64,000 nt of DNA from Haloplanus sp. GDY1 (GTDB lineage: Archaea; Halobacteriota; Halobacteria; Halobacteriales; Haloferacaceae): contig NZ_CP098514.1 of assembly GCF_023703775.1 (NCBI RefSeq), positions 2,639,998-2,703,997 of the forward strand. The letters run 5' to 3'. The notes under the pieces were generated by a model that saw only the letters and a program-made list of their open reading frames with translations, searched no databases and was not told the origin of the DNA. Positions 7,535 to 40,734 of the stretch are shown one piece after another; position 1 is the first letter of the stretch, and each line of letters opens with the position of its first letter. A program made the position numbers and the translations under genes.

Positions 7535-7544
7535 GTCGGGACGG

Positions 7545-20560: not shown

Positions 20561-21481
20561 TTAATCACCCACAGTAACCTCTCCCGAGGCGATTCTGCTC
20601 ACTGTCGATCGATGAAGATCAACGACCTCTGCGATTTCCTTTTTGTTTAGTAAGCCGCGTGCATCCACGGCGCGAATGAACTCATTCCGTGCTTCCTTCC
20701 GTGCTTGCTTGCGTTCTTTTTCAACTCGCTCGTCGACCTCGTGCTGAGGAACATACTTGTCTTCTTCATCCTCTAGCTTGGACCACTTCTGCTCGTGCAG
20801 TTCGGCAAAGACAGGGTCATCATCGGGAAGCGCGCCCCATGTCACGTCACAGATCGGTTTAGTGTAGGTCTCATCTTGGAAGGGATTGTTCTCAAGCTTG
20901 TAGACACGAGCACGGCCACGGCGCCGAATCAGGACCCAGTAGTGGGCCATCTGGCGAATCTCTTTGTCGATCTGATTGATATCTGGTAGCGTGTAGAAAC
21001 TGTACTTCTCGCCGACGCGACCCATCGCAACCTTTTCGTTTAGTTCTTGGTTGACATTCGTCATCGCCTTGCGAGCGTTGACGCCTGCCTCAGCCTCGTC
21101 GAAGACGAGCCCGGCGCCTTTCTCTTTCTCAACGTAGGCGTCGGTGAACTCTTCTGGCGTATTCGTGACTTTGTCTGGAGTGAGCCCGTCATCAGTGCGG
21201 TCAAATGCGCGGGCGAATTTGACTGCGAGGGTGGTCTTACCGGTCCCCCGGTCAGCGTAGTAGTCGCTGATGATCGCTGTCAGTTCGCGCCCTTGTTCGA
21301 CGCGGTCTTCATACTGCTCGTAAAACGGCGTCTCCTCGAAATCGGTAATCCATTCATTCATCGACCACCCATCAGGGAACTCTGGACCCTGAGTCGGCGG
21401 GTATCGATCACTCCGAAGGCCGCCACGATATGCCAACGGCGCCATACCAGCAGGCCCGCGGTAATTTTTCCAGTCGCTCAT
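20561..21481 (-). CDS. P-loop ATPase with C-terminal helix-turn-helix (assembly or packaging type)
   Basis: 306 residues. Walker A is ADRGTGKTT (76-84) and Walker B is GLVFDEAE (124-131). Downstream are a sensor-like YSFYTLPDINQIDKEI, then RRGRARVYKLENNPF (about 210), a charged helix, and a C-terminal helix-turn-helix (NKKEIAEVVDLHRSTVSRIA). The overall shape (short P-loop domain, GRxRVYK strand) recalls Zot/FtsK-HerA-like ATPases of filamentous and pleomorphic viruses, which drive assembly or DNA entry. It is last in a three-gene leftward operon that faces the membrane operon. Start ATG at 21481 overlaps the previous stop. Confidence 0.75.
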   Translation of the reverse strand: MSDWKNYRGPAGMAPLAYRGGLRSDRYPPTQGPEFPDGWSMNEWITDFEETPFYEQYEDRVEQGRELTAIISDYYADRGTGKTTLAVKFARAFDRTDDGLTPDKVTNTPEEFTDAYVEKEKGAGLVFDEAEAGVNARKAMTNVNQELNEKVAMGRVGEKYSFYTLPDINQIDKEIRQMAHYWVLIRRRGRARVYKLENNPFQDETYTKPICDVTWGALPDDDPVFAELHEQKWSKLEDEEDKYVPQHEVDERVEKERKQARKEARNEFIRAVDARGLLNKKEIAEVVDLHRSTVSRIASGEVTVGD

Positions 21482-22455: not shown

Positions 22456-22944
22456 ATGCCTGTTACGGCAGACACGCCGACGATGGCGGCCGCGACGCGG
22501 GGCGCAGAGCCCGCCGCCCGACTCGGCCTCGACCACGACGACGCATCGACGCCCTCGCGCCTCGCGGCGCTCAAGGCAGCTGCAACCGACAAGATCGGCG
22601 AGGTAACGGACCTCGGCGAGTTCGCGTTCTCGACGGCCGACGCCTACGTGTCGGAGTACGTCGATCGCGAGGAATCGCAGTTCAACAACATCATCGGGGC
22701 AGCCATCACACTCGGACTCTCGATCATCCTGCTCATCCTGATGGCGATCGTCGCTGGCTACTTCGTCGCCGAAGCCCCCAGTGACGGCGCGTTCAGCGAG
22801 TCCATCCAGCAGGTCGAGAGTGTGGGTGGGACGGCGTTCATCCTGCTCGCCGTCGCGCTGCTCGCCGTTCCGGTGGTCGCCATCGTCGGCTACTTCATGC
22901 GGAGTGGCCTCGGCGGCTTCATCTCGGGCGGCATGACCCGATAG
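22456..22944 (+). CDS. Two-helix membrane protein, first gene of the structural-type operon
   Basis: 162 residues. A soluble N-terminus of about 80 residues is followed by helix 1 (TLGLSIILLILMAIVAGYFV, about 95-115) and helix 2 (AFILLAVALLAVPVVAIVGY, about 130-150). It ends in a Gly-rich tail (GLGGFISGGMTR). Start 22456 is set by the TATA element; longer in-frame codons overlap the other promoter. This resembles small abundant envelope proteins of pleomorphic viruses in layout only. Confidence 0.7.
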   Translation: MPVTADTPTMAAATRGAEPAARLGLDHDDASTPSRLAALKAAATDKIGEVTDLGEFAFSTADAYVSEYVDREESQFNNIIGAAITLGLSIILLILMAIVAGYFVAEAPSDGAFSESIQQVESVGGTAFILLAVALLAVPVVAIVGYFMRSGLGGFISGGMTR

Positions 22945-22999
22945 CGGCTTTCACACAGCCGTTTCCCGCATTTTCCATGACCGCAGAACCCTACAAAAT

Positions 23000-23293
23000 A
23001 TGAGCAAATGGACTGCCGCGTTCGCGCTGTTGGGCGTGCTCGTCGTCTTCGGCGCCGCCGGGACGCTCGCGATGGATGCTGCCTATCAGCAGACTCGCGA
23101 GACGCGCAACGCCTCGGCGAGCATCGCCGACCCGACGCCGCCCGCCCTCGAAACGGGGCGCGAGGTTGGTGGCGGCCTCTCGTCGATGCTGCCGTTACTT
23201 GCGTTTGTCGCCGTCCCGATGGGGATTCTCGGCATCCTCTCGCTCGGTGGCATCGCGTACGTCAGACGGTCGTCAGGGGGGCTGAGTCGATAA
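23000..23293 (+). CDS. Small membrane protein with signal anchor
   Basis: 97 residues: hydrophobic N-terminus (5-24, AAFALLGVLVVFGAAGTLAM), an extracytoplasmic-type loop, then a second helix (SMLPLLAFVAVPMGILGILS) and RRSSGG. It is preceded by an eight-codon ORF (22978-23001) that ends in ATGA overlap with its start, perhaps for translational coupling. Its TAA overlaps the next ATG. Confidence 0.65.
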   Translation: MSKWTAAFALLGVLVVFGAAGTLAMDAAYQQTRETRNASASIADPTPPALETGREVGGGLSSMLPLLAFVAVPMGILGILSLGGIAYVRRSSGGLSR

Positions 23294-23622
23294 TGTACGA
23301 AACCCAGTACATCCTCCTGTTTCTCGCCGGCTGTGCGCTGACCGCCGGCGCGTGGACCGACCACGCCGCCGGCTTCAGCGCCGGCGCGGGCGTGTTCGTC
23401 TGGATCATCATCGGCTTCGCCAGCCTGGCCGTCGAGCCGGCCCAGGCCGACGTGGTCGCGTCGCCGGCGCTGGCGTGGCTGAGCTTCGGCAACGCCGGGA
23501 TGCACGCGGTGCGGCTGGCGCTGCATCTCCAGGCGGTGATGAGCGACGCTGACGAGGACGCGATGGCTCTCGACCCGATCCAGCAACTGCGCGATACTGA
23601 CGACGACCTTCCCAACCCATGA
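23293..23622 (+). CDS. Three-helix membrane protein
   Basis: 109 residues. Helices at about 6-22, 29-45 and 55-80 (ILLFLAGCALTAGAWTDHAA; GAGVFVWIIIGFASLAVEPA; ALAWLSFGNAGMHAVRLALH), then an acidic soluble tail of about 25 residues. Overlaps both neighbours. Unknown function; part of the membrane operon. Confidence 0.65.
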   Translation: MYETQYILLFLAGCALTAGAWTDHAAGFSAGAGVFVWIIIGFASLAVEPAQADVVASPALAWLSFGNAGMHAVRLALHLQAVMSDADEDAMALDPIQQLRDTDDDLPNP

Positions 23623-24206
23623 GTCAAACTGCACAAGACATCGCCGACGAACGACGCGAACAGCAACTCCGCGAGGGCGCGATCGGGCAGGCCGCGCAGT
23701 CGGCCCAGCTCGATCAGGCCGCTCGCGGGCGCCCCCAGACGTTCATCCGCGAGATGGGCGACCCGGACATCTCCGCGCCGGCCGACGCCAGCAACTTCGA
23801 GGAGATGCTGGCGCCGGAACTCTCCCACCATCACGTCTTCGGCAACATCACACGCGAGGACTTCGAGGGGCTCAAGATCACCAATCAGGGGCTTGCGATG
23901 CAGGTCAAAGCCGAACACCCGCGCAAGGCTGGCCCGTCCTCGAAATGCACGGGCCAGTACCGCCGGGAGATGTACGGCGAGGACAAGGTCGTGCTGACCG
24001 ACGACAAGGCCCGCGAGGTCGACTCGACGCTCGGCGAGGAGGGAACGCGGACGATGATGCAGTCCAAATCCGTCGAGGGAATGGCCTTCAAGGGCGCCAC
24101 CCAGGTCAAAAGCGTCGTCAAAACCGAAGGCGCGGCCAGCGACGACGATGGGGGCGGCCTGATGGACTCGATCCGTGGCGCGCTCGGGATCGGAGGGGAT
24201 GACTGA
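23619..24206 (+). CDS. Soluble protein of the membrane operon
   Basis: 195 residues and the only clearly soluble member between membrane genes. The N-terminus is Gln/Ala/Arg-rich and helical, the middle is mixed (SHHHVFGNITREDFEGLKIT; SKCTGQYRREMYGEDKVVL), and it ends with DDDGGGLMDSIRGALGIGGDD, where MDSIRGALGI is an amphipathic helix that could touch the membrane. It might be an internal matrix-like or adaptor protein; that is inference. Overlaps both neighbours. Confidence 0.65.
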   Translation: MSQTAQDIADERREQQLREGAIGQAAQSAQLDQAARGRPQTFIREMGDPDISAPADASNFEEMLAPELSHHHVFGNITREDFEGLKITNQGLAMQVKAEHPRKAGPSSKCTGQYRREMYGEDKVVLTDDKAREVDSTLGEEGTRTMMQSKSVEGMAFKGATQVKSVVKTEGAASDDDGGGLMDSIRGALGIGGDD

Positions 24207-25378
24207 TGTTCGGGTTCATCAAGGGCCTGATCCCCGGCACCGCACGGTACAGTCGCAAGCATCACGTCAAGTATCTCCGGAAGAAAGCCCGCGGCCACGA
24301 CGCCCTCCTGCTCGTCGAGTGGGAGGACGGCAAGCTGACCGAACTCGGCGCCGACGTGCATCCCGAGATGGATGGGTGGTACGAGGCGACCAACGGCCTC
24401 GTGTTCGCGCCAGCGGGCGAGGGCGCTGATCCGGTCGATTACTACGGCGTCCCGACGATCCGCTGTCACAGCCAGATCGCCTGCCCATTCAGCACGGAGG
24501 CGTGTCTCGCCGCCGACTTCGACGAGGCGGGGCAGTTCCAGTACAACATCGACCGCGAGGACGGCACGACCCAGCAGGTCGTTGAGGTCGATATGGCCGA
24601 CCAGCCCCAGGCCGACCAGCCCGGCGCCGGCAACGGTGCGAACGGCCAGGCGACGGCCGACGGTGGCGAGGAGATGGTCAGGTCGTATGACCTGCGCCCG
24701 CCCGCTGGGGCCGTGGGCTACTCGTTCTCGCTGACCCAGGCGAAACAGCGCGCGCCGAACGCAATCAGCGCGAATATGATCCGCCGGGCCGTGGAGTACG
24801 GCAAGGAGAAAGCCCGGAACGAAGGGCTGTACATGAAGGGCCTGCTGCATGGCGGCGGGATGATCCTGGGGACGCTCATCATCATCGCCCTGCTGTACAT
24901 CATCGGCGGCGCCGTCCTCGGCGGTGGCGGTGGGGGCGGTGGCTCCGGTGGCGGGGGCGGCGGGTTCGTCTTCGGGTCGCTGCTGTTGCTGGCTGGGCCG
25001 CGACTCGGTCGCGCCCGTGACGAGCTCAAGGCCGACCTGGAGCAGATGCGCGAGCAGATTCGCCGCCACCCGCGACAGTTCGCGCTGGCGTCTCTCCGCG
25101 GCATCCTCTTGGGACTGAGCGCCGCGACAGCGATGATCGGGTACTGCCTCATGCTGCTGACCAGCGCCGTCTTCTGGGGCGAGTGGTTCGGCACCCACCC
25201 GACAGTCGCGAGCGAGCCACTGTGGGTGGCTGGCCAGTCGGTGCCACTGGCGACCGTGGTCGGGCTGCTCCACTGGATCGCGGCCGCCGCGCCGGTTCTG
25301 CTGCTACTGTACTGGTACACTGACCGACTGGCGGGCGCAGTCCGGACGCTTCGGGAGGCCAGGTATGCACAGCAGTAG
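24206..25378 (+). CDS. Polytopic membrane protein with Gly-rich linker
   Basis: 390 residues. A soluble N-terminal domain (1-205) begins MFGFIKGLIPGTARYSRKHH and includes VDYYGVPTIRCHSQIACPFS (three Cys/His). A DGGEE linker is followed by helix 1 (about 212-233, LGTLIIIALLYIIGG), a run of about 17 Gly with one Ser (about 238-255), helix 2 and a coiled coil (LKADLEQMREQIRRHPRQFA). Helices 3 and 4 follow near 300-325 and 350-370. The charged N-terminal region may bind DNA or the inner membrane face. No family is recognised. Confidence 0.7.
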   Translation: MFGFIKGLIPGTARYSRKHHVKYLRKKARGHDALLLVEWEDGKLTELGADVHPEMDGWYEATNGLVFAPAGEGADPVDYYGVPTIRCHSQIACPFSTEACLAADFDEAGQFQYNIDREDGTTQQVVEVDMADQPQADQPGAGNGANGQATADGGEEMVRSYDLRPPAGAVGYSFSLTQAKQRAPNAISANMIRRAVEYGKEKARNEGLYMKGLLHGGGMILGTLIIIALLYIIGGAVLGGGGGGGGSGGGGGGFVFGSLLLLAGPRLGRARDELKADLEQMREQIRRHPRQFALASLRGILLGLSAATAMIGYCLMLLTSAVFWGEWFGTHPTVASEPLWVAGQSVPLATVVGLLHWIAAAAPVLLLLYWYTDRLAGAVRTLREARYAQQ

Positions 25379-25454
25379 CGCCTACTGGAACGGCTTTCTC
25401 GCCGTTCTCACCCGGGGACTAACCCGTCTCGGGCCGGGCACCGGAGGCAGGTAG
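25365..25454 (+). CDS. Possible 29-residue peptide
   Basis: MHSSSAYWNGFLAVLTRGLT ending RLGPGTGGR. It starts inside the end of the previous gene behind GGGAGGCCAGGT and ends two bases before the next ATG, so it would bridge a gap in an otherwise overlapping operon. It has one short amphipathic helix. Its size makes it uncertain. Confidence 0.4.
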   Translation: MHSSSAYWNGFLAVLTRGLTRLGPGTGGR

Positions 25455-25456
25455 CC

Positions 25457-25990
25457 ATGGCGGCCCGGTCGGGATCGCTCGCCTGGGTCGTGCTTGCCGG
25501 CGCCGTGAGCATCGGCATCGCCGCCGCGATGTGGGGTGTGCTGGATTCGCAGTTTCTCGATACACTCATCGCGACCGACCGCTGGAGCGCCGAGCAAGGC
25601 TCGACGCTTGCGGTCGGGCGCCAGTACGTCATCCTCGCGTGGAACTGGTTCCTGTTGATCGTCGTCCTCCGGGTCGGCATCGAGGCACTCGTGGCCTCCC
25701 GACTGACTGGCGCGACGACGATGCTGCCGTTCGCGACGCTCGTGCTCCTGTCGATCCACATCCTGCTCGTGTTGTGGATGCTGACCATCCCCGAGATGGC
25801 CCAGGAGATGCTCACACTCGCGACCAACGACTTCAGCGGCGCCCTCCAGTCGATGGACGGGCTTGCACTGGCTGTTGACTTGGCCTACCAGTGGGGGATC
25901 GGCATCCTGCCGTCGGTCCTGCTGGTGATCGCTGACGGCTGGTATCTCTCCAGCCCGATTCGCAACGACATGCTCCGCCGAGGTGTCTAA
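25457..25990 (+). CDS. Four-helix membrane protein
   Basis: 177 residues with helices at about 7-25, 55-75, 85-108 and 145-165 (SLAWVVLAGAVSIGIAAAMW; ILAWNWFLLIVVLRVGIEAL; LPFATLVLLSIHILLVLWML; GIGILPSVLLVIADGWYL). The loop NDFSGALQSMDG probably lies outside. It ends three bases before the next gene. No family recognised. Confidence 0.68.
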   Translation: MAARSGSLAWVVLAGAVSIGIAAAMWGVLDSQFLDTLIATDRWSAEQGSTLAVGRQYVILAWNWFLLIVVLRVGIEALVASRLTGATTMLPFATLVLLSIHILLVLWMLTIPEMAQEMLTLATNDFSGALQSMDGLALAVDLAYQWGIGILPSVLLVIADGWYLSSPIRNDMLRRGV

Positions 25991-25993
25991 CTC

Positions 25994-26620
25994 ATGACCG
26001 ACAACCAAACCGAACTCGAAGCACTCCGCGACCGTGTTGCACAGCTCGAAGACCAGCAGGAACAACTCGCCCAAGGCGCCACCGACGCGCAGGGGCGCTC
26101 GTGGACGGTGAGCGACTTCCTCTCGCTCGGACTGACGCGACGCCAAGCCGTCACGGCGCTCGGCCTCATCGCCGGCGGCATGGCGCTCCCGACGGCGCTG
26201 ACCCAATCAGCAGTGGCGGCGCCCGGGGACGACGGTGACACGGTGCTCGGCTCGTCGTCGAATCGGTGGGATGCCTGGATGGACGAGCTCGACGCGAATG
26301 CGGTCAGTACAGAGAAGATAGATAGCAGTCCGGGATATAGCTGGAGCGCCGAGGACAGATCATTTGATACTGTTTATAACGCCCCATCTGACAAAGATAT
26401 TTATTTTGTCGTATCAGCCGAAGCAGAGGCAGATAACACACTTGTCAATCTCGGAGTCTATATCGATGGATCATTCCGGGTGTCCCCATCAGAGTCTGTT
26501 GATTCCGGGGACCGTGTGCTCACTCCAGTTTATCGTATTCCAGCTGGAGTCTCTTACGAGCTGCGGGCGTTCGGAGATTCCGGATCTTATACGATCAACA
26601 ATTGGAACGAGTTACGATAG
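25994..26620 (+). CDS. Tat-exported protein with foreign-looking C-terminal beta domain
   Basis: 208 residues. Residues 1-30 form a coiled coil (ELEALRDRVAQLEDQQEQLA). An internal twin-arginine signal follows (SLGLTRRQAVTALGLIAGG, RR at 49-50, AVAA cleavage region near 75). From about 105 a beta-rich domain (FDTVYNAPSDKDIYFVVSAE; RVLTPVYRIPAGVSYELRAF) has the look of tail-fibre or receptor-binding tips of haloviruses. At the same point (about 26300) base composition turns AT-rich and codon use changes, a sign of module exchange. It is probably a surface adhesin of the particle or cell. Confidence 0.75.
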   Translation: MTDNQTELEALRDRVAQLEDQQEQLAQGATDAQGRSWTVSDFLSLGLTRRQAVTALGLIAGGMALPTALTQSAVAAPGDDGDTVLGSSSNRWDAWMDELDANAVSTEKIDSSPGYSWSAEDRSFDTVYNAPSDKDIYFVVSAEAEADNTLVNLGVYIDGSFRVSPSESVDSGDRVLTPVYRIPAGVSYELRAFGDSGSYTINNWNELR

Positions 26621-26675
26621 TGACGTATAGTGACCACTCAGCTCAAAAATAAAAACACGAAATAAAATCAGATAG
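26621..26675 (+). promoter_or_regulatory. AT-rich promoter of the spike-like gene
   Basis: A 55-base gap with aaaaataaaaacacgaaataa; a TATA-like aataaaa is centred about 27 bases before the ATG at 26676. The spike-like gene and those after it may therefore have their own promoter inside the operon. Confidence 0.45.
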
Positions 26676-28679
26676 ATGAACTCCAAACCGTCCCGCGGCA
26701 TCGTCCTCATCATCGCGCTCCTGCTATCGACGAGTGCCGTCGGGACGGCCGCTGCGGGCACGATCCCAATCTCCCAAAACGACAATGGAATCGTGCTCAC
26801 GGAACCGGGCGGCCCCTCGATCACGCTGACTGGAGACACGACGATGTACACCGAGACAGGCAGCGTCGACTCCTCGACAGTCCAGTGGAACACGACCGCC
26901 GGGAACGCGAGTTTCAAGGCCAGCGGCGCGGCGGCTGCTACTATCGACGCATCCTCGCTGGATGCCACGACAACCTCACTCACCGAGATCAATACGACGG
27001 AGGCGGCGCTGACGGTTCGGACAGGGGAGACGCCCGCGACGACGATCGACGGCGGCGTGACTGCGCTGGAGTACTACACTGCCGGTGAGACGACACTCGG
27101 TGACGGACAGGCTGATTTCGTCTATTCGGCCTCCGGCAGCGGCTCGGTCACGCTCCGTGGGCTCCCAGCGAACACAGAGATCGCCGCCGCAACACTGAGC
27201 GGCACCGAACTCGGGGCGACCACGAGCGATAGCAGCGGCACCGCGACCATCTCGGTCAGTAGTGCCACTGACGCTCAGGTCGTGCTCTTCCAGGCCGACG
27301 CACCGACGCTGTCCGGGGCAGACCCAGCCGACGGCGCCGAGACCAACAGCTACGACGGCGACATTAGCATCAACGTCTCCGATCCGGATTTCGCGACGCG
27401 GCAGGGCGATTCGGTCACGGTGACGGCCACTGACACCGACGGCAACACGATCGGCAGCCAAACCGTCAGTAGCAATGGGACTGTTGCCTTCGACTACGCC
27501 GCGATACCGGGCCCGAATACCGTTGAGTGGACAGCCGCTGATGGCTACGACAACCAAGACTCGTTCACCCACGAGTTCACGACGCCGAGCACGCTGACAC
27601 TCTACAACGAGTCGGCACCCAGCCAGGTCGTCGATGACGCAGGCGAACTCCGCGTGCGCTTTTTCGGCGAGAGCGACACTGTCGTCACGAAATCCACCGC
27701 CGACGGCACGCTCAATCTGACCGGGGTCCCAGCCAACGAGCGCTTTGTCGTCACTGTCAGCGACGAGAATGATGACTACTACTACCGGCGGATCATCATC
27801 GACTCGATTTACGAGCAGAAGGAGATCTATCTCCTCCCGCGCAGCGCCGACGCCAACGAGGTCGAGTTCCGCCTCAACGACTTTACTGGCGGCGAGTTCG
27901 ATGCCCCCTCGACACGCCTCTATGTGGAGCGTGCGATTACCAAGGACTTCAACGGCGACGGTAGCAACACGACACAGTACCAGGTCGTCCTCGGGGATAC
28001 CTTCGGCTCCTCGGGCGGCTTCCCGGCGGTGCTGGCGACCAACGAGCGCTATCGCCTCCGACTCGTCAACAACGATGGCGACGTGCGGATGCTCGGCTCG
28101 TACACGCCGACGCGCGACGCCATCGAGCAACTGTCCGTGCGTGGCCTCTCCTTTGAGCCGCCCGAGGGGAAGGGCTGGACCACAAACCTCAACGTCTCAA
28201 CCGAAGGACGCCGGTCGGTCACCTGGAAGTACATCGACGAGAGCGACGCCACTTCGTCGCTAAATGTCTCGATCCGAAGCTCCAACGGCACCGTCGTCTA
28301 TCAGGACTCAGTCCAAGACCCGGGCAACTACGCCGTCTATGGCGTTCCACTCGACAACGAGACCGAGTATGTCGTCGAGTGGAACGCCACCCGTGGTGGC
28401 GACACCATCGGTCAGACGCGGCCGGTCGGTGGCGGCGACCTCGGCATCGACATCCCGCTGGATAGCGACTGGCTCGGGACGCTCGGGATGCTCTCCGTCG
28501 TGTTCACCTTGTCGCTGGCGGGCGTCCGCAAATCCGCCTACGTCGCCATGTCGGCGGTCGTGATGGCAGGGCTGCTGATGGCACTCCAGGCGGTCAACAT
28601 CTACCCGCCGCTGTGGTGGCTTGCGGCCCTGATCGCCGTCGGCGGGTACCTCAAAACAACCCAGAGACCAGGCCAATGA
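26676..28679 (+). CDS. Spike-like secreted protein with C-terminal membrane anchor
   Basis: 667 residues. Signal peptide 1-29 (SRGIVLIIALLLSTSAVGTA). The large outer part (30-595) is beta-rich: a Thr/Ser-rich domain, an Ig-like repeat around 205-305 (GADPADGAETNSYDGDISIN; AAIPGPNTVEWTAADGYDNQ), then carboxypeptidase-regulatory-like or Ig folds (SEGRRSVTW region omitted for length). Three C-terminal helices (about 600-660, WLGTLGMLSVVFTLSLAGV; VVMAGLLMALQAVNI; WWLAALIAVGGYL) anchor it. Size and layout fit an envelope spike or S-layer-like adhesin. It is the best candidate for the main surface protein of the element, and for glycosylation by the element's own enzymes. Confidence 0.78.
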   Translation: MNSKPSRGIVLIIALLLSTSAVGTAAAGTIPISQNDNGIVLTEPGGPSITLTGDTTMYTETGSVDSSTVQWNTTAGNASFKASGAAAATIDASSLDATTTSLTEINTTEAALTVRTGETPATTIDGGVTALEYYTAGETTLGDGQADFVYSASGSGSVTLRGLPANTEIAAATLSGTELGATTSDSSGTATISVSSATDAQVVLFQADAPTLSGADPADGAETNSYDGDISINVSDPDFATRQGDSVTVTATDTDGNTIGSQTVSSNGTVAFDYAAIPGPNTVEWTAADGYDNQDSFTHEFTTPSTLTLYNESAPSQVVDDAGELRVRFFGESDTVVTKSTADGTLNLTGVPANERFVVTVSDENDDYYYRRIIIDSIYEQKEIYLLPRSADANEVEFRLNDFTGGEFDAPSTRLYVERAITKDFNGDGSNTTQYQVVLGDTFGSSGGFPAVLATNERYRLRLVNNDGDVRMLGSYTPTRDAIEQLSVRGLSFEPPEGKGWTTNLNVSTEGRRSVTWKYIDESDATSSLNVSIRSSNGTVVYQDSVQDPGNYAVYGVPLDNETEYVVEWNATRGGDTIGQTRPVGGGDLGIDIPLDSDWLGTLGMLSVVFTLSLAGVRKSAYVAMSAVVMAGLLMALQAVNIYPPLWWLAALIAVGGYLKTTQRPGQ

Positions 28680-29059
28680 CACGCATCCAATCAGTCCGGA
28701 TCGGTGCGACGATGGTCGCCTTTATCCTCGCGCTGACCACGGTTAACGCCCTTGCGGTCGGTGCGGGGGTCGGCATCAGTCTTGGCGCCAGCGGCGTCGA
28801 TACCGAGGCACTCAACCAACAGACCCAGAACTTCCAACAGCCCGAGGTGCAGGGCATCGGCCAGCAAGACCCCGGGTTCTTCGGCGTCGCGGTGGCGCTG
28901 AAGCGGACGCTGGATCAGCTGTGGGCGATCACGACGCGCCTGCATCTGATCCTCGGCGCCTACGGCGTCCCGACAGTGATCGGCGCGAGCGTCCAGGCGA
29001 TGGTTGATTTCACGATGGCCATCGGCGGACTCCAGATTCTCGGGAGGTTCAAGTTCTGA
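28676..29059 (+). CDS. Small membrane protein after the spike gene
   Basis: 127 residues. A signal peptide-like N-terminus (MVAFILALTTVNALAVGAGV), a Gln-rich outer segment (NQQTQNFQQPEVQGIGQQDP), and one or two weak helices (HLILGAYGVPTVIGASVQAM; FTMAIGGLQILGRF). Its start overlaps the stop of the spike gene (ATGA), so equal production with the spike is likely. It may be a spike partner or envelope protein; no family. Confidence 0.68.
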   Translation: MTRIQSVRIGATMVAFILALTTVNALAVGAGVGISLGASGVDTEALNQQTQNFQQPEVQGIGQQDPGFFGVAVALKRTLDQLWAITTRLHLILGAYGVPTVIGASVQAMVDFTMAIGGLQILGRFKF

Positions 29060-29061
29060 CC

Positions 29062-29376
29062 ATGGTCGAGCAACTTCTCCAGGCGACCGATCCGGACTGG
29101 TTCCAGTACTGGAAAGACATGCAGTGGTTCAAAGCCGTCTTCGAGCCACTGATCTGGCGCTTTGGCCGGGCCGGCATCGGGCTGCTGATCGGCGCCCCAT
29201 TCACGATGGCGCTCTGGCAACAGGCAGAGAGCGTCGTCCCGCCAGCGGTGATGCTCACGCTCTTCATGGGCCTCCTGCTCGGCGGCGCCCCGGCGGGCGC
29301 GACCATCGGCGGCTACCTCATTATCGTCGTCGCGACGGCGGTGGCCTACCGGTCGATCTTCGGGGGTGAGCGATGA
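29062..29376 (+). CDS. Three-helix membrane protein
   Basis: 104 residues. A Trp-rich amphipathic start (DPDWFQYWKDMQWFKAVFEP) is followed by helices at about 38-55, 60-78 and 80-98 (AGIGLLIGAPFTMALW; PPAVMLTLFMGLLLGGAPAG; TIGGYLIIVVATAVAYRSIF). It begins two bases after the previous stop and overlaps the next gene. Function unknown. Confidence 0.65.
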   Translation: MVEQLLQATDPDWFQYWKDMQWFKAVFEPLIWRFGRAGIGLLIGAPFTMALWQQAESVVPPAVMLTLFMGLLLGGAPAGATIGGYLIIVVATAVAYRSIFGGER

Positions 29377-29795
29377 GCCGGACGCCCGGCTGGTGGCGCG
29401 CGCTCCCGACGTGGGCTCAGGCCCTGTGGCTCTCGGCGTGGCTCCCCGGCGCCGTCGCTCACGAGCTGACGCATGCGCTGGTCGCCCGGCCGTGGGGCGC
29501 GGCGCGGCTCAACTGGGACGAGGTCGCCTGCGATATCGAGTGGGATGGCGACGACTATCTGGGGCGGGCCGTCGCCGCGATCGCCCCGCTGGTCGTGGGG
29601 AGCGCCCTGACCGTTGGCCTCTGGCTGACGGTCGCCGGCCGGCCGGGGAGTATCATCGGCCTCGCCGTCTCGGCGTACGCCATCCTCAACCTCGCGATCT
29701 ACACGGTCGCCTCGGCGGTCGACCTGCATCGGGCGACCGTCTACGCGTACCTGTGGTACCGCCAGCGAACCAGCACTGGAGTTGATCATGCATGA
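29373..29795 (+). CDS. Membrane protein with HExxH motif (possible protease)
   Basis: 140 residues, three to four membrane helices. HELTH at residues 30-34 sits at the end of helix 1, as in intramembrane or membrane-bound zinc proteases. Later ILNLAIYTVASAVDLHRATV offers Asp and His as further ligands. It resembles small M50/DUF3267-like proteins; the fit is partial. In this operon it could cut or mature the spike or scaffold proteins. It overlaps both neighbours by ATGA. Confidence 0.65.
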   Translation: MSRTPGWWRALPTWAQALWLSAWLPGAVAHELTHALVARPWGAARLNWDEVACDIEWDGDDYLGRAVAAIAPLVVGSALTVGLWLTVAGRPGSIIGLAVSAYAILNLAIYTVASAVDLHRATVYAYLWYRQRTSTGVDHA

Positions 29796-32700
29796 GCACG
29801 AACGACACCAGCGACACGACCGACAGTTCGTCGACGGACACAACGTCCACGACGGACAGTAGCACCGACACGACCAACACCAGCAGCACGGACACCACCA
29901 CGACAACCGACACCACCCAGGAGAACTCCACGACGAGCGAGCCGAGTACGACATCGACGACCGACACCAGCACCGACAGCACCACCGATACGACGACAGC
30001 CAGCGGCGCGCAGTCAGGGAGCAACAACGCCGACGCGCAATCCTCGGCGTTCGACGGTTCCGCAGGTGCCGGCACCACGGCTCAACCGGACGACCTCCCC
30101 GAACAGTATCGCGAGCAAGCCAGCGAGTTCCGCCAGGAGGCGGCCAGCGACCTCGACCGCTACGCCCCGAGCGATCTCCGTGTCACGGCCGAGGATGGGC
30201 AACTCGACGCTGAAGTCAAACCCGCCGCTCGCGAGCGCGAACTCCGCGAACAGGCCGCCAGTGAGAGCGACGCCTACGACCCGACGGACTTCCAAATCAC
30301 GGAGGGCGAGGACGGCATGACCGCCCAGGTCGCCGAGCCAGCGCTCCGCGAGCAAGCGGCCAGCCAGTCGGATCGCTACGCACCCTCGGACTTCGAGGTC
30401 GCTCGACAGGACGGCCGCCTCGTCGCCCAGGTCGCCGAACAGGCGCGGCGGCGCGAACTCCGGGAACAGGCCGCCAGCGAAGCCGATGCCTACGGACCAC
30501 AAGACTTCGAGATCACTGAGACCGGGGACGGACTGACCGCCCAGGTCGCCGAGCCAGCACTCCGTGAGCAGGCAGCCAGTCAATCTCCGTACGATCCTTC
30601 GGAGTACGTCGTCACCGATGACGGCGGTGTGCGCCCCTCGAAAGCAGCTGTCCGCGAGCAGGCTGCGTCAGAGCTTGACCGATACAGTGAGAGTGACATC
30701 CGTGTCACCGTGCAGGATGGCACGCTTGAGCCAGTCGTCACGGAACAGGCCAAACGCCGCGAACTCCGGGAGCAGGCCGCCAGCGAAGCCGATGCTTACA
30801 AGCCAAGTGACTTTACGATTTCAGAGGGTGAGGACGGACTGACCGCCACCGTCGCCGAGGACGCTCAGCGCCGCGAACTTCGGGAGGCTTACCGCGAGCA
30901 GGTCGCCGAGCAACACGACATCGCCGAGTCACAAGTTTCCGTCAACCTACCCGAACTGTCCGCCACGACTCAGCAATTCGACGCCAACAACGACCGCCAG
31001 ATCGGGATGCAGGAGAAACTGGAGGCCATCAAGGACAAAAACGAGGGCGAGATCACCCAGCAGCAACTCCAGCAAGTACTCGACGCCCCCGAACCCAGCG
31101 TCGAACTCGGTGATGCGGCCACGCGGGAACTCGCCGCCCGCGAGTCGGATGTCTTCCGCGCGGACGACCTCGAAGTCGTTGACGGCGAGGTCCAACCCAA
31201 GCGCGACACGCCGTCACCCGAGGCCGTCAGCATCGGGCTCGGGATCGCGAACGAGGGTCCACCGGGTGCCCCAGGAAGCGACCCGACCGGCGAGATCGCG
31301 TGGGTCGGCCCGGATGGCGAGCGCATCGCGACCGGGATCGACGCCCAGTGGACCGACGACGACCCGTACTCCGCCTACGTCGATGTCCCGGATCAACGCG
31401 GCGAGTGGCGCCTCCAGGTCGGCGGCGAGACTGTCGAGACGGTCGACGTGGGTGCGGTCGGCGCCACCCGCGACACCTACCAGGCCGACGTGCCCGCTGG
31501 CTGGAACGCTGACGTAATCAGTATCGACGAGTCCGCTGGCACCGGCTCGGTCGCACAGGCGGCGTACGACCCGGACGAGCGCTACACGCCGGCCTCGGTC
31601 GACGAGGACGTGGTCGCGGGCGCCGGCGCCGCCGAGGCACTCCAGGCCGGCGTGACACCCGAGACACTCAGCGAGATCAACCCGATCAGCGAGCGCGAGG
31701 GCGCCGAGATCGCCGCGACCATCGAGCAAGGCGGCTCGCTCCAATTGACCCAGCCCGACGTGTCCGCGCCCGAGAACATCGCCGATGCCGACCAGAACCA
31801 GGCCATCCGCGAGGATATCGCCGCCGAGATCGAGGGCGTCAGCGCCGAGGAGTTGGACATCGTCGCGACCGGCAGCGGCACCGAGATCGTCGGCCCGGGC
31901 GGCGGGACGATCACCTCGCCCGGCAGCGGTGGCGGGACGCCCGGGCGGTCGCCGACCGATGCGACCTTCGACGGCAGCCGGTCGGTCGGGGATGCGGGCA
32001 CGGGCGCCGGTGTGACGGCCGGGCTGGAGGCCGCGCGGCAGGAAGCCTGGCAAGAGGTCGCTGGGCAGTCGGAGTTCCTCTCTCCGGAGGATGTCGCAAC
32101 CAGCGTCGAGGATGGGCAAGTCTCGGCCAGCGTCGAGCAGCCGGCGCTCAAGCGGATGGCGCGCCAGGAGACGGCCGCGGGGCGCGAAAACGTCCAGCCG
32201 AGTGATGTCGAGGCGACGATCGTCGATGGTGAGGTGCAGACGAGTATCCCGTTCCTTGAACAGGAGCAGCGCGCTGCCGTGAATCGCTACGGACAGCGAC
32301 AACTCGACGCGCAGAACCGCGAAGTGGGTAACTTCGAGAACGAGCGATTAGTGCAGGAGACGACGACGAGGCTGTCTGCCCAAGACCAATTCTCGACCGG
32401 CCGCGCCGAGGTCGTCGCAAACTCTGCTCCGACTGGTCCGCCGATCGATCTGGGCGATACGCCAGTTAACGTCCCGGTCACTGAGCGCGAGGGGCAGATG
32501 CTGACAGCCCAAGATCAGTTCTCAACCGGGACGCGTGAGCGAATCCAAGCAACTGGCGAGACCGAACGTCTCGAAACGCTACTGAACCGCGAAGCTGAGG
32601 AACTCACCGCAAACGCGGGCGATATTGGGGCAAGCCTCCAACCTGAGTATGAAGTCAGCGCGACGACCGAATCCATGCTGGCTGCCCAGGACCAGCAGGC

Positions 32701-34582
32701 GATCACGGGTGGGACAGACGAAACTGCCCGCGCCACAGCCGAAGGGGTCGCTGATGTAGTCAACCCGTTCGGTATTGCCGCCGGGGCGAAAGAGATCGGC
32801 GAGACAGCTGCGTTCGCCGCCGGGACGACTGCGGATGCCGAAGGGCTCGACGCTGAGGACCGGACGAATATCGCTGCCGGACAGGCGGCTGCTGCCGGGC
32901 GTCAGTTCGCCGACTTCGCCGGGGATAACCCGCGGCGGGTTGGGGCCTCACTTATCACTGGCACGGCAGTAGCCGCGGCGAGTGCGCCCGCGGTCGGCGC
33001 CCTCGGCAAGCGGGCCTTCGTCGGCGCCCGCGGCCGGTTGGCAACCCGAGGACTCGACTTCGAAAGTCGCGTCGAGTTCGAAAACATCGAACGTCCAGAC
33101 GTGCGGTCCGGTGAGAATCGGCTGACGACTTTCAGCGAGGAGGCGGTCCCTGGCGGCAAACGGAGCACCGACCCCGACACGTTCCCAGTAGAGACGGAGC
33201 CGCGCGATCCGGGCGCAGAACTTCGCAACCTCGCCGACGAGTACGACGATCCGGCGATCCGGGACGCGCTCGATGCCGACCCAGGGGAGCAGACGCTGTT
33301 CTCTGCCCGAAGCGGGATCAAAGGCGACCGCTTCGAACCGCGGTCACAGCGCAACTACGACCCCGACGCCGGATTCTTCTCGGGGTCTGTGTCCCGGAAC
33401 TTCCTTGATGTTGACGAGACGCCTGAGTCTGGCGGCGTGCGGGCGCCCAACCCCACCGGGGCGATCCAGAGCCTCGTCGATGCAGTGAAACAGGAAGACA
33501 CGCCAAACATCGTCGCCACTGCTGGCGACGTTCGGACGCTGCCGGACGATGTGCGAACCCGCGGCGAGATCACGGACTACCTGCAAGAGCGCCGTAACAC
33601 GGGCGAGTTTTTCGTTCGGCAGTCAGACAATCAATCCGGCGAGGCAGAGGCGATCGTGTCTGCCTCCGGCGAGGGAAAGGACAACCCGTGGCGCGGCGCC
33701 GGCCGCGTCGACGAAGGCGAAGCGACGCAGTTCGTCGAAGTCAACGATCCTGCTGTCACGAAGGTGGGTGGCGAGCGGGTCCCGATCCAAGTGTTCCGAC
33801 AGGATACTGGCGACCTCGACACCTCCGCTGGAGTGACGGGGCGATTCTCGTCGTTCCTCGAAGACGACCGCGGGATGGTCGGCGGCGGTGGGCGTCGGCG
33901 GGCAGGTCGGTCGGCTCGGCGCACTCGCTCGGACGATCTCGACAGCGAGCCCGGATATCGCCCCGGCGGCCAACCCGGGACGCCGCTTGGCCCGCCGGCG
34001 AGTGGCTTCCCTGCCTCAGGCAGTTCGATGCCCGGCAGTGACCCCGACTCGCCAGCGGGAGCGGCGCCATCGTCTGGGTTCGCATCGCCCAGCGAGACTG
34101 TCGAGTCTGTCGCGCCGTCCGGCGTGTCGTCGCCAGTCGAGAGTGTCGCGCCGTCGGACGCGCCATCCTCACCGATCGAGAGTACTGCGCCCTCAAACGT
34201 GCCCTCGTCGGCGCCGGCATCTTCTGGGTCGCCGTCTGGTGGCACCGGGTTCGGTAGCGGATCGCCCCCCACGAGCGGTATCAACAATCCACCGTACGAC
34301 CCGCCGTCGAGTCCGCCCTACGAACCACCGTCGAGTCCCCCCTACGAACCACCGTCGAGTCCCCCCTACGAACCACCGTCGAATCCACCGTACGACCCGC
34401 CGTCGAATCCGCCGACGAGTCCACCACCGACCACACCGACAGAACCGCCGACTCGGCCACCAGAGTGGGATATGGACTGGGATGACAAGGAGTATCCCAA
34501 CAGCTTCGAAACCGACCCGCAGCGCTTCGAGAATCCGGTCGACAACCCTTACGAGTTCCTCGGCTTCAACGTCGATCTGTAG
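29792..34582 (+). CDS. 1596-residue scaffold-like protein with repeats, EF-hand and PPxY tail
   Basis: The largest element gene. Residues 1-95 are low-complexity Thr/Ser/Asp. About 105-390 hold seven to eight copies of a roughly 40-residue unit, LREQAASExDAYxPSDFxIT then DGLTAxVAExA; related copies recur near 445 and 755-830. FDANNDRQIGMQE (396-408) is a good EF-hand loop, with a weaker second one. A hydrophobic stretch (VGASLITGTAVAAASAPAVG, about 1050-1070) may be a membrane segment. A mixed alpha/beta part follows (about 1080-1370, ending in GGGGRRRAGRSARRTRS). The tail is Ser/Pro-rich with five PPYxPPS units (1500-1539) and an acidic end. No enzyme motif is seen. A scaffold or matrix role is inferred. 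Confidence 0.72.
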   Translation: MSTNDTSDTTDSSSTDTTSTTDSSTDTTNTSSTDTTTTTDTTQENSTTSEPSTTSTTDTSTDSTTDTTTASGAQSGSNNADAQSSAFDGSAGAGTTAQPDDLPEQYREQASEFRQEAASDLDRYAPSDLRVTAEDGQLDAEVKPAARERELREQAASESDAYDPTDFQITEGEDGMTAQVAEPALREQAASQSDRYAPSDFEVARQDGRLVAQVAEQARRRELREQAASEADAYGPQDFEITETGDGLTAQVAEPALREQAASQSPYDPSEYVVTDDGGVRPSKAAVREQAASELDRYSESDIRVTVQDGTLEPVVTEQAKRRELREQAASEADAYKPSDFTISEGEDGLTATVAEDAQRRELREAYREQVAEQHDIAESQVSVNLPELSATTQQFDANNDRQIGMQEKLEAIKDKNEGEITQQQLQQVLDAPEPSVELGDAATRELAARESDVFRADDLEVVDGEVQPKRDTPSPEAVSIGLGIANEGPPGAPGSDPTGEIAWVGPDGERIATGIDAQWTDDDPYSAYVDVPDQRGEWRLQVGGETVETVDVGAVGATRDTYQADVPAGWNADVISIDESAGTGSVAQAAYDPDERYTPASVDEDVVAGAGAAEALQAGVTPETLSEINPISEREGAEIAATIEQGGSLQLTQPDVSAPENIADADQNQAIREDIAAEIEGVSAEELDIVATGSGTEIVGPGGGTITSPGSGGGTPGRSPTDATFDGSRSVGDAGTGAGVTAGLEAARQEAWQEVAGQSEFLSPEDVATSVEDGQVSASVEQPALKRMARQETAAGRENVQPSDVEATIVDGEVQTSIPFLEQEQRAAVNRYGQRQLDAQNREVGNFENERLVQETTTRLSAQDQFSTGRAEVVANSAPTGPPIDLGDTPVNVPVTEREGQMLTAQDQFSTGTRERIQATGETERLETLLNREAEELTANAGDIGASLQPEYEVSATTESMLAAQDQQAITGGTDETARATAEGVADVVNPFGIAAGAKEIGETAAFAAGTTADAEGLDAEDRTNIAAGQAAAAGRQFADFAGDNPRRVGASLITGTAVAAASAPAVGALGKRAFVGARGRLATRGLDFESRVEFENIERPDVRSGENRLTTFSEEAVPGGKRSTDPDTFPVETEPRDPGAELRNLADEYDDPAIRDALDADPGEQTLFSARSGIKGDRFEPRSQRNYDPDAGFFSGSVSRNFLDVDETPESGGVRAPNPTGAIQSLVDAVKQEDTPNIVATAGDVRTLPDDVRTRGEITDYLQERRNTGEFFVRQSDNQSGEAEAIVSASGEGKDNPWRGAGRVDEGEATQFVEVNDPAVTKVGGERVPIQVFRQDTGDLDTSAGVTGRFSSFLEDDRGMVGGGGRRRAGRSARRTRSDDLDSEPGYRPGGQPGTPLGPPASGFPASGSSMPGSDPDSPAGAAPSSGFASPSETVESVAPSGVSSPVESVAPSDAPSSPIESTAPSNVPSSAPASSGSPSGGTGFGSGSPPTSGINNPPYDPPSSPPYEPPSSPPYEPPSSPPYEPPSNPPYDPPSNPPTSPPPTTPTEPPTRPPEWDMDWDDKEYPNSFETDPQRFENPVDNPYEFLGFNVDL
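34289..34432 (+). repeat. 24-bp tandem repeat encoding PPYxPPSx
   Basis: Six 24-base units from 34289 (five with PPY, the last degenerate PPTSPPPT) give PPYDPPSS, PPYEPPSS three times in near-identical form, and PPYDPPSN. They lie in frame inside the large scaffold gene. Copy number may vary by slippage. Confidence 0.85.
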
Positions 34583-34584
34583 GG

Positions 34585-35655
34585 CTAACAGAGTTCAAGG
34601 CTCGCATACACTTTCCCACGGCCGTCGATGTATATCCCTAGTCCCGCTTCGTCAGCGGACGAGACGAGCATCGCCTCGCGATGGTCACGAGAGTTCATCC
34701 ACATAACGAACAACCCCTGAGCGATATCGCGCTCGCTGTCAACGTGGATGGTTCCATTAGCAGTACGCACGTCCTTGTTCACCCAAAAGTGAGCGGCATT
34801 CTCCGTGCCCGCGTAGTAGCGACCAGATCCGGAGATGGGAAGCCGGCACTCTGGCAGTAACCCTCGCTCGCGGTATCGGTCTTTAATCGTCGAGCCATCC
34901 GGCTCCTCGTGCCCGATGTAGTCATGTTCGGCCATATCTGCGCTGTGCGACCGGCCCATCTCCGTCAGTACGTCACGTTGCGTCACTGGCTGGAGGCCAC
35001 GGGATTCGCGTTCGGTGTTCAACATCTCAATGAATACTGTTTCGACCTCCGACAGATCGTACTTCTGCCGAGGAGGGGGCGGGTTCGGCGTCGCTGTCGC
35101 CGTCGAGGTTGCGGTCGCGGTCGGACGCGCACTCGCAGTCGCCGCGGGCGTCGCCGTCGCTGTCCCGCCGGTCGCAGCAGCCGCACCGCCAGCACCGCCG
35201 GCCAACGTCCCGCCGGCCGAAATTGAGACGGGTGCGAACAGCAACACACCAGCCAGCGCGATCACGCCGAGTCGTTCCCACGTAACTGACCGAACGACCT
35301 GTCGGGTAACCACCGACTGCGTGAACAGACGTGTGACTGGGAACCCAGCAATATATCCACATTCGTCAGGCGGCTTGTGATGGTGCTGCTGGGTCGTGTG
35401 ATAACACTTCGTGACGAGATCACCGGCACGGCGCGAGATTCGGCGACCACACTGCGGGCACTTGCGTGTGTTGCGCCCCGAGCGCCCGTACCAGTATCGA
35501 GTCCGGTAGTACGTCCCGATCAGGACGCGGACGCCGACGTAGACGAGCAGGGCGACAGCGAGCGACTCCGTGGGCGTCGCGCCCTCGAACCGGGCGGCAG
35601 CAGACGCGGCGCCGACCGCCAGCGCGGCAGCGAGGACGACCTGTCGCCAGCGCAT
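34585..35655 (-). CDS. Membrane-anchored CAP-domain protein with zinc ribbon
   Basis: 356 residues. Helix 1 near 1-25, helix 2 near 30-48, then a Cys/His motif CPQCGRRISRRAGDLVTKCY (about 66-85) with HHHKPPDEC, helix 3 (about 130-150), a Thr/Pro/Ala stalk (TATATPAATASARPTATATS-like), and a C-terminal CAP/SCP domain (about 205-356). Its marks are FIEMLNTERESRGLQPV, GRSHSADMAEHDYIGHEEPD, GTENAAHFW and MWMNSRDHREAMLVSSADE. CAP proteins act outside the cell in adhesion, lipid binding or proteolysis-like roles. It is convergent with the large scaffold gene, only two bases apart. Confidence 0.82.
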   Translation of the reverse strand: MRWRQVVLAAALAVGAASAAARFEGATPTESLAVALLVYVGVRVLIGTYYRTRYWYGRSGRNTRKCPQCGRRISRRAGDLVTKCYHTTQQHHHKPPDECGYIAGFPVTRLFTQSVVTRQVVRSVTWERLGVIALAGVLLFAPVSISAGGTLAGGAGGAAAATGGTATATPAATASARPTATATSTATATPNPPPPRQKYDLSEVETVFIEMLNTERESRGLQPVTQRDVLTEMGRSHSADMAEHDYIGHEEPDGSTIKDRYRERGLLPECRLPISGSGRYYAGTENAAHFWVNKDVRTANGTIHVDSERDIAQGLFVMWMNSRDHREAMLVSSADEAGLGIYIDGRGKVYASLELC

Positions 35656-35970: not shown

Positions 35971-37767
35971 CTACCCGTCGGCGCGATGCGCCATCCGCTC
36001 GGCGTTCTCGCGAACGGTTTCTCCGAACGGCGTCTCGAACGCGACCTTCTCCGGGAACCGATGCAGCGGGCGCCCGGATTCACGCCAGGCGATGCGGCCG
36101 ACCCGGATCACTTCGGGCGCCCACGGATGCGAATCAGCCTTCGCCATCGAGAGGGCGCTCCGCAGCCGGAGTTGCTGGCCGTCGACGGCGTCCTCGATCT
36201 CGGCGGCGTAGCGGTTCACCCACTTCTGCCAGGCCTTGCCCTTCCGGTCGAGATCGCGCGGGTCCATGTCGGCGATGCGGGCGAGCGCGGTGGTCGCCGC
36301 ATCGACGCTCTTGTTGAGGACGTCCAGGACGTCGCGGATCTCGTCGCGCACCTTCCCACTGATGAACTTGATCGAGCCGTTCTCGAGGCGGAGGACCTCG
36401 TCGAGCTTCGAGAGGTGGCGGTAGATCGTCGACCGGCTCCAGTCGGTTTCGCGGTCGACCTCGTCGACGCTGGTGCCGCCGTCGGTCATCGCGGCCTGCT
36501 CGATGATCTCCTCGGCAGCGCTGTCAGCGTCGATCTGCTGGAACAGCGAGATGATCGTCGCCTCCTGGCGCTGCTCGATCTCCGGCGTCGGGTCGTCGAT
36601 CAGCGCGATCTGACGGCGCTGGTCGGCGTATCGGTCTCCAGAGAAGTGCCAGTCCGACACCCACCACGGGCCGGGCGAGACGGCGATCCCTGCCCACGAC
36701 GCGACGTTGAGGACGTAGGAGTCGAGCGCCTGGATCAGTTCGTACCGGCGGTTCCAGGCGACAGACTCAGCGCCGTTCAGTCCTTTCTTAAACAAAGCAC
36801 CGAGTTTCGGATGGGCGAGCGGGTCGCCCTCTTCGCGACCGCCAGGATGCTCAGGTTCGTAGAGTTTCTCCTGCATCCCGTAGGCGCCGTGGTCGGCGTC
36901 GAGGTCATCCTCCCGGCGCTCGGCGTCGGTAGCTTCGGGTGCGCCGGCCGAGGTCGAGTGGTCTCCAGGATCGAACGCCTTCCGCACCGCGGTCTTCGTG
37001 AACTTGAGTTGGTGGTTCCACCCGACGACCTTCCGATTGTCCGCGGAGTAGACGATCTTCGATCCTTCCTCGTCGGCCAGCAACTCGAAGAGGCTCTTGA
37101 AGACTCCGTCCGAGCGCGTGATCTTCTCAGCGGCGTCGCTCGAGGGACGGACGTACCGCTCGTGTTGCGTGATCGCGGAGTACGGATGGACGTCGCCACA
37201 GAAGTAGCTCTCGTCCCATGACTGACTAAGCCCCTCTGCGATGCCTCGGAGGAGCAGCGGCACCAGATAGCGAATCTGGTCCAACTCGATATTCACCGAG
37301 TTGTTGATATGGACGGTCACCGCCTCGCCGAGATCGTTCGGAACCGACTGCGGGCGCCGCTCCGGACACTCGTCCCAGCCGAGACGGGGCTTCACCTGGA
37401 TCGGGAGCTTCCGCTCCTCTTCAGCGTGGGCGGTGATGTCGAACTCGTAAAGCTGGTCGACGCCGTCGGAGGGACGTGGCTCCATCCCTGACTTGTGGTA
37501 ACTGAACGTCACGCTCCAGGTACGGGTGCCCTCGCCGCGCCAGCGCGGGATGTCGATCTCGAAGCTCTTCGAGCCTTCCTCGAAACTAAAGAACAGCGAC
37601 GCGAGCGCCCAGTACGGGCGGTCATCATGCTCGTCAAAGACGAGGTTCCCACGCGTCTCGTGAGGCACGGGCGCGACGTGGTCAGCGTGCTCGTCGCCGT
37701 CGACGCGGAGATGCCGGTACGGCGAGTCGAGACCGGGCGTGTCGCGTGTCGGTTCGGCCTCGATCAC
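35971..37767 (-). CDS. Large winged-helix protein, candidate replication initiator
   Basis: 598 residues, soluble. The N-terminal half (1-300) is beta-rich with YWALASLFFSFEEGSKSFEI, then VTVHINNSVNIELDQIRYLV and HERYVRPSSDAAEKITR. The middle has WAGIAVSPGPWWVSDWHFSG. Residues about 420-480 form a winged helix (DEVDRETDWSRSTIYRHLSK; LRLENGSIKFISG), then a helical C-terminus. I know similar large proteins from haloarchaeal elements but not their role. Last and largest gene of the nine-gene operon; it ends next to the stem-loop gap, so replication initiation or plasmid control is the inference. No nuclease, polymerase or P-loop motif is seen. Confidence 0.7.
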   Translation of the reverse strand: MIEAEPTRDTPGLDSPYRHLRVDGDEHADHVAPVPHETRGNLVFDEHDDRPYWALASLFFSFEEGSKSFEIDIPRWRGEGTRTWSVTFSYHKSGMEPRPSDGVDQLYEFDITAHAEEERKLPIQVKPRLGWDECPERRPQSVPNDLGEAVTVHINNSVNIELDQIRYLVPLLLRGIAEGLSQSWDESYFCGDVHPYSAITQHERYVRPSSDAAEKITRSDGVFKSLFELLADEEGSKIVYSADNRKVVGWNHQLKFTKTAVRKAFDPGDHSTSAGAPEATDAERREDDLDADHGAYGMQEKLYEPEHPGGREEGDPLAHPKLGALFKKGLNGAESVAWNRRYELIQALDSYVLNVASWAGIAVSPGPWWVSDWHFSGDRYADQRRQIALIDDPTPEIEQRQEATIISLFQQIDADSAAEEIIEQAAMTDGGTSVDEVDRETDWSRSTIYRHLSKLDEVLRLENGSIKFISGKVRDEIRDVLDVLNKSVDAATTALARIADMDPRDLDRKGKAWQKWVNRYAAEIEDAVDGQQLRLRSALSMAKADSHPWAPEVIRVGRIAWRESGRPLHRFPEKVAFETPFGETVRENAERMAHRADG

Positions 37768-40687: not shown

Positions 40688-40734
40688 ACGTTTCGAGCGA
40701 GGACCGTATCCGGGTTAAGCGTGTCGTTTCCGTC

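Follow-up and report, generated by a model that had tools for sequence, protein, structure and literature searches.

A twelve-gene operon of Haloplanus sp. GDY1 as the probable late module of a lemon-shaped provirus related to LSV-48N

A stretch of 64,000 nt from Haloplanus sp. GDY1 (NZ_CP098514.1, positions 2,639,998-2,703,997, forward strand; hereafter the window) carries a twelve-gene operon at 22483-34582. The operon is very probably the late module, for virion structure and assembly, of a temperate virus that is lemon-shaped and belongs to the LSV-48N lineage; its ~32.2-kb provirus is integrated at the 3′ end of a tRNA-Pro(GGG) gene. Lemon-shaped viruses are the same as spindle-shaped viruses. 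An earlier sequence-only reading of the window had proposed a new kind of system that produces a membrane-budding transfer particle. Its core, a DNA-transfer module with spike, membrane proteins, and ATPase on an integrated element, was retained, but vesicles of the pleolipovirus or pR1SE type were not, and the claim of novelty gave way to homology with the late operon of LSV-48N. The virus is of a known kind, and its host genus is new, as are the proposed capsid protein and the wider host range of the family, which is tied to the spindle-shaped viruses His1 and BLv25 through its ATPase and gene order.

Architecture of the operon

The operon consists of twelve consecutive plus-strand open reading frames (ORFs), all with ATG starts and separated by overlaps or gaps of ≤78 nt (Table 1), which bears out the dense rightward operon originally described. 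The start first given for it, 22456, is an upstream ATG in the same frame, and gene 1 is called at 22483. GC content at third codon positions (GC3) is strong in 11 of the 12 genes (0.77-0.89) and falls to 0.62 in the gene for the protein with a twin-arginine translocation (Tat)-like signal (25994-26620). This protein is possibly a receptor-binding accessory, and the low GC3 of its gene would fit a receptor-binding part that was acquired recently.

Hydropathy analysis places transmembrane (TM) segments in eight small proteins, matching the seven to eight that had been anticipated, and none in the protein at 23619-24206, as also anticipated, or in the giant protein at 29792-34582. The predicted membrane HExxH protein does have such a motif (HELTH), with weak, below-cut-off matches to DUF3267. 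For most of the operon proteins, no family of Pfam, NCBIfam, or PHROGs passes the curated cut-offs, which explains why the module first seemed novel, and no match to a non-transfer system such as a pilus emerged among them. Chance is excluded as an explanation because the same gene order recurs in other haloarchaeal genomes.

Table 1. Features of the element and its integration site in the window (CDS, coding sequence; aa, amino acids)
Feature	Position	Strand	Basis
Left attachment repeat, GGATGGGACCGCCGTG	8398-8413	+	Copies tRNA-Pro 3′ end
Full-length tyrosine integrase, adjoins left attachment site	8483-9499	-	Pfam Phage_integrase 4.7e-7, Phage_int_SAM_1 1.6e-6
Short tyrosine recombinase, 201 aa, SNJ2-like size	13921-14526	+	Pfam 4.4e-8; homologue of LSV-48N CDS25
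GtrA-like membrane protein, probable glycan transport	16389-16754	-	Pfam GtrA_DPMS_TM 5.6e-15
Family 2 glycosyltransferase, GtrB-like	18876-19622	-	Pfam Glycos_transf_2 2.2e-24; phrog_841 3.6e-21
P-loop ATPase, family Z, spindle-virus type	20561-21361	-	Divergent from operon; LSV-48N CDS23 phmmer 4.5e-10
Gene 1, family A, two TM helices, 153 aa, proposed major capsid protein	22483-22944	+	LSV-48N CDS20 phmmer 1.9e-5
Gene 2, two TM segments	23000-23293	+	Position and topology only: LSV-48N CDS19, BLv25 ORF3, His1 ORF23 (TM-beta-TM)
Gene 3, family C, small membrane protein (3-TM in relatives)	23293-23622	+	hhalign with LSV-48N CDS18 family 83.5%, E 8e-6
Gene 4, family D, soluble, 195 aa	23619-24206	+	Iterated profile joins LSV-48N CDS17 and 20 loci
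Gene 5, family E, C-terminal TM segments, 390 aa	24206-25378	+	Iterated profile joins LSV-48N CDS16 and 18 loci
Polytopic membrane protein, 4 TM	25457-25990	+	Position only: slot of LSV-48N CDS13/14
Protein with Tat-like signal (RRQAVTALGL), just upstream of spike	25994-26620	+	Sequence
Spike, family S, 667 aa; signal peptide, beta-rich body, three C-terminal helices	26676-28679	+	LSV-48N CDS12 phmmer 2e-47
Family I, small membrane protein	28676-29059	+	Iterated profile from LSV-48N CDS11
Family J, polytopic small protein	29062-29376	+	Iterated profile joins LSV-48N CDS10 and 19 loci
Family K, membrane HELTH protein, zincin-like	29373-29795	+	LSV-48N CDS08 phmmer 2.3e-9
Giant acidic non-membrane protein, 1596 aa, last gene of operon	29792-34582	+	Weak LSV-48N CDS15-family core match
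CAP-domain protein, Cys-rich N-terminal region	34585-35655	-	Pfam CAP 4.9e-10; directly downstream of giant gene
Rep-Arvir (DUF7845) rolling-circle replication initiator	35971-37767	-	Pfam PF25227 1.7e-85
tRNA-Pro(GGG), integration site	40614-40688	-	ARAGORN
Right attachment repeat, tRNA-Pro 3′ end	40614-40629		

Homology to LSV-48N

LSV-48N (PP151251), the best-studied relative of the element, is a Haloferax virus described in EMBO Reports in 2025. According to that report, electron microscopy of supernatants showed lemon-shaped particles that were lost after curing, the 24-kb circular genome was present in supernatant at high coverage and exists in integrated and circular forms, 13 of the virus's own proteins were identified in supernatant by mass spectrometry, and infection caused little cell death (PMC12714723). 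The most abundant of its proteins is described there as having a C-terminus that resembles an SSV19 tail protein and, at residues 365-549, a beta-sandwich (PMC12714723), a description that would fit CDS12, the homologue of the spike studied here.

Six proteins of the element match LSV-48N directly by phmmer, namely the spike, the replication initiator (Rep; CDS26, 1.6e-20), the short integrase (LSV25, 1.3e-15), the ATPase, the HExxH protein, and gene 1, while iterated profiles tie families D, E, I, and J to this virus and hhalign ties family C. The spike, searched by tblastn against 50,697 phage records, had a single match, and that match was LSV-48N (E 3e-30). Families A, C, D, E, S, I, J, and K are collinear in the two late operons, with the giant protein displaced, and both elements have a divergent ATPase, Rep-Arvir, a membrane HExxH protein, and one short plus one full-length tyrosine integrase. 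The two differ in host genus and in size (32 kb compared with 25 kb), and their spikes, of 667 and 904 aa, are 26% identical in the alignment. The giant protein has 1596 aa and follows the spike here, whereas its LSV-48N counterpart has 824 aa and precedes it, and only the Haloplanus element has the additional Tat-signal protein before the spike and a glycosyltransferase and GtrA pair.

The three C-terminal spike helices that had been predicted appear in a low-confidence structure model (mean predicted local distance difference test score, pLDDT, 55), which has a beta-rich body followed by helices at residues 597-614, 618-636, and 644-662. Structure searches, as had been suggested, were made with Foldseek, but their matches (TM-scores mostly <0.2, to multi-domain beta proteins) do not count as evidence here because the predicted models are of low confidence. 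Compared with the PDB, the spike family profile found only generic immunoglobulin-like and similar matches, and the profiles of gene 1 and the ATPase found nothing.

The giant protein is probably the internal or scaffold protein of family F, as suggested by hhalign of its residues 978-1056 with the LSV-48N CDS15 family (E 8e-4, probability 24%). That figure is quoted because an iterated profile of the core, which gave 3e-17, perhaps included the window protein itself; by phmmer among the giant proteins, the window protein was unmatched. The giant gene follows the spike in the window and in locus L063, and large genes occupy that slot in locus L041 and in the plasmid PL23. Degenerate 135-nt repeats (81% and 63% identity to the first copy) with motifs of the REQAASEADAY type occur in the giant gene at 30235-30891.

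Relation to other spindle-shaped viruses

A characteristic ATPase is reported in all known spindle-shaped archaeal viruses (PMC10866085), which share it along with a capsid protein that has two hydrophobic helices (PMC10866085, PMC4728574). This ATPase is present in the element. Its gene had been read as part of an operon facing the module but is instead divergent, back to back with it, and it is the gene for the DUF7845 replication initiator, on the minus strand, that faces the operon. The only phage record retrieved by tblastn of the ATPase was that of the Halorubrum spindle-shaped virus BLv25 (E 1e-27, 31% identity), and hhalign of the ATPase family aligned it with BLv25 ORF1 (99.9%, E 5e-38), with His1 ORF16 (99.5%, E 3e-23), and more weakly with SSV1 B251 (82%, E 1e-5). 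The ATPases of the window (3.4e-6), LSV-48N, BLv25, and His1 all match phrog_5484.

The late genes of His1, BLv25, and LSV-48N encode, in a common series, first a two-helix protein, then a TM-beta-TM protein and a three-helix protein, and farther along a spike that has helices at its C-terminus. The window keeps this series of topologies, except that hydropathy finds just one TM segment in gene 3, compared with three helices in its relatives. When profiles were compared, the family in the corresponding position ranked first of six for the capsid protein (E 6e-4), for the TM-beta-TM protein (E 3e-4), and for the 3-TM protein (E 0.05). Gene 1 is proposed as the major capsid protein, since these lines of evidence, with the match of the spike C-terminus to BLv25 ORF8, favor it in combination although each is weak by itself; its family was the best of six small families when compared with known capsid proteins of spindle-shaped viruses, and its structure model has a pLDDT of 50.

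His1 virus (Halspiviridae, AF191796) resembles the element in its homologous ATPase, divergent from the late operon, and in its order of 2-TM capsid protein, TM-beta-TM protein, 3-TM protein, and spike, yet most structural proteins of the two are too divergent for a significant sequence match. His1 also has a linear genome and a family B DNA polymerase, with no integrase or DUF7845 Rep annotated, whereas the Pfam-scanned proteins of the Haloplanus element include no such polymerase and have the DUF7845 Rep instead. BLv25 (OQ850971) shares the ATPase, followed by a gene annotated as capsid protein with the same topology, as well as a protein with a Tat-like signal (ORF6) and a C-terminally anchored spike. 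Unlike the element, BLv25 is 13 kb in size, has its ATPase on the late-gene strand, and has a spike (ORF8) whose similarity is confined to the C-terminal membrane region (hhalign 72%).

Several points weigh against the assignment of the operon to this lineage or against its details. No particle is known from this host, and the capsid assignment draws on gene position, on topology, and on a profile match that is weak (E 6e-4, probability 29%); the authors of LSV-48N found no ORF like a known capsid protein (PMC12714723). For the 3-TM family, the top rank is not itself significant, and the genes that start at 23000, 25457, and 25994 are tied to relatives by position, topology, or weak links only, gene 2 having no significant match to family B and the protein at 25457-25990 no significant match at all. 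The giant protein matches its LSV-48N counterpart only in a core of ~80 residues, from a gene on the opposite side of the spike, and the structure predictions, built on three-row alignments, are of low confidence. Finally, other genomes of the genus do not share the flank to the left of the left attachment repeat, so the left border depends on the 16-nt repeat and the adjoining integrase.

Integration site and borders

The provirus spans 8398-40613, and its borders are marked by a 16-nt repeat that copies the tRNA-Pro 3′ end. Among exact matches in the window anchored at the tRNA 3′ end, only the one at 8398 reaches 16 nt, and the runner-up has 8 nt. In comparisons of the joined flanks with 11 other genomes of the genus, homology begins at the tRNA and none extends to its left, which fixes the right border. 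The segment at 7318-8398, to the left of the attachment repeat, may be part of another inserted element.

The Rep-Arvir family has been defined, shown to be the replication initiator of the pleolipovirus SNJ2, and noted in LSV-48N (PMC13107129). The short integrase was rejected as a marker of the module, since its family occurs in 302 of 372 genomes and is not module-specific.

Alternative explanations

The element could be a pleolipovirus-like provirus, whose spike and membrane proteins would bud pleomorphic vesicles that have no capsid. Such a provirus would account for the set of spike, membrane proteins, and ATPase, for the short integrase of the size found in SNJ2, and for a Rep that is homologous to those of the betapleolipoviruses HRPV-3, HHPV3, and SNJ2. 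The last two traits are not discriminating, however, because LSV-48N has both. In PHROGs, the structural genes have no match among pleolipovirus families, a PDB search with the spike profile did not retrieve a pleolipovirus spike, and the matches to phage records were to LSV-48N for the spike and to a spindle-shaped virus for the ATPase. Betapleolipoviruses such as SNJ2 and HRPV-3 are like the element in Rep-Arvir and, for SNJ2, the short tyrosine integrase, but no similarity was found in the structural module; as compared by sequence, the tie to this group is the replication initiator and not the particle, and a pleolipovirus-like provirus is very improbable. A plasmid-vesicle element of the pR1SE type (apHPV), also a mobile element rich in envelope proteins and with a large structural-looking protein, has even less to recommend it and is considered extremely improbable. 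The core genes of apHPV include an S8 subtilase (ORF7) and a VirB4-like ATPase (ORF25) (PMC10818511), neither of which was found among the Pfam-scanned proteins of the element, and PLSDB, a plasmid collection that does not include the pR1SE record, yielded no such plasmid when searched by tblastn with the spike and with gene 5.

A further alternative accepts the lineage and proposes that the provirus is degenerate or domesticated, with a late module that is decaying or serves a surface function of the host. The genome assembly holds a single spike match and therefore no episomal copy, the codon composition of the Tat gene differs, and the left flank is atypical. All twelve genes are nevertheless open and tightly packed, Rep, the ATPase, and the two integrases are intact, and both attachment repeats are present. 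The other species sampled from the genus, moreover, gave no match to the spike or to gene 1, a pattern that a mobile element would be expected to produce. Decay or domestication is accordingly regarded as unlikely, and a temperate virus of the LSV-48N lineage is the preferred explanation.

Distribution among haloarchaea

The survey for the operon in other genomes that had been recommended found matches to the spike family in 31 of 392 Halobacteriales genomes (~8%, about one in twelve), across several families and mostly with the same gene order. By comparison, the LSV-48N report describes related proviruses only from Haloferax (PMC12714723). In the 23 loci where four or more genes were labelled, 820 gene pairs were concordant in order with LSV-48N and 15 discordant, and 201 of 203 genes lay on the expected strand. 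The gene 1 family was found in 28 of the 392 genomes, often as a tandem pair. Tandem pairs of the candidate capsid gene are present in loci L041, L046, L050, L061, L067, and L068, an arrangement that recalls VP1 and VP3 of SSV1.

Searches with other probes were less informative. Gene 5 alone was dropped as a probe, being too divergent (five genomes at E ≤0.001, one of which, at L010, lacks the module), and the broad spike alignments were too diverse to be usable for pattern searches. A scan of genome contigs with the LSV-type spike found two loci, and searches of IMG/VR with alignments of gene 5, the BLv25 capsid gene, the LSV-type spike, and the ATPase, each represented by a few short peptide patterns, gave no confirmed relative.

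Plasmid PL23 of Natronomonas pharaonis (NC_007428, locus L075) carries the module, with an ATPase, tandem homologues of gene 1, families C, D, E, and J, the spike followed by a large gene, and a Rep homologue. Unlike the window, it is annotated as a plasmid, nearly all of its proteins are hypothetical, and an identical copy is present in the chromosome (locus L049; 19,501 bp compared); these identical copies indicate mobility within the family. No particle study of PL23 was found in the literature consulted, and the survey suggests that the plasmid is a virus genome. Several near-identical related spike regions occur on a 75.8-kb plasmid and the chromosome of Halomicrobium urmianum (loci L054 and L055).

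The balance of the evidence tilts slightly toward a broader interpretation, in which elements of the LSV-48N type are an order-wide virus family whose particle module shares ancestry with His1 and BLv25 (ATPase, capsid, TM-beta-TM, 3-TM, and spike proteins), whose replication and integration genes come from a pool common to pleolipoviruses and plasmids, whose members include some haloarchaeal ‘plasmids’ such as PL23, and whose large acidic protein is a type of scaffold not described in other spindle-shaped viruses. Widespread relatives of LSV-48N may matter for haloarchaeal physiology because this virus, according to its description, reduces transcription of host defence genes and slows host growth (PMC12714723).

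Proposed mechanism

In the proposed cycle, one or both integrases of the element would excise the provirus, Rep-Arvir would start rolling-circle replication, and the late operon would then be expressed. The two-helix protein of gene 1 would enter the membrane and serve there as major capsid protein, joined by the remaining small membrane proteins as minor components, while the divergent P-loop ATPase would handle the genome and the large soluble acidic protein may serve as an internal scaffold or genome organizer. Receptor binding would be the task of the spike, anchored by its three C-terminal helices, and of the Tat-type protein beside it, and particles would presumably be released without lysis, as in LSV-48N.

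Other genes of the element

The GtrA-like and GtrB-like pair inside the element suggests virus-encoded glycosylation, and a glycosyltransferase is likewise carried by His1. Homologues of the CAP-domain (SCP-like) protein encoded next to the giant gene are also found near the module in loci L041 and L052.

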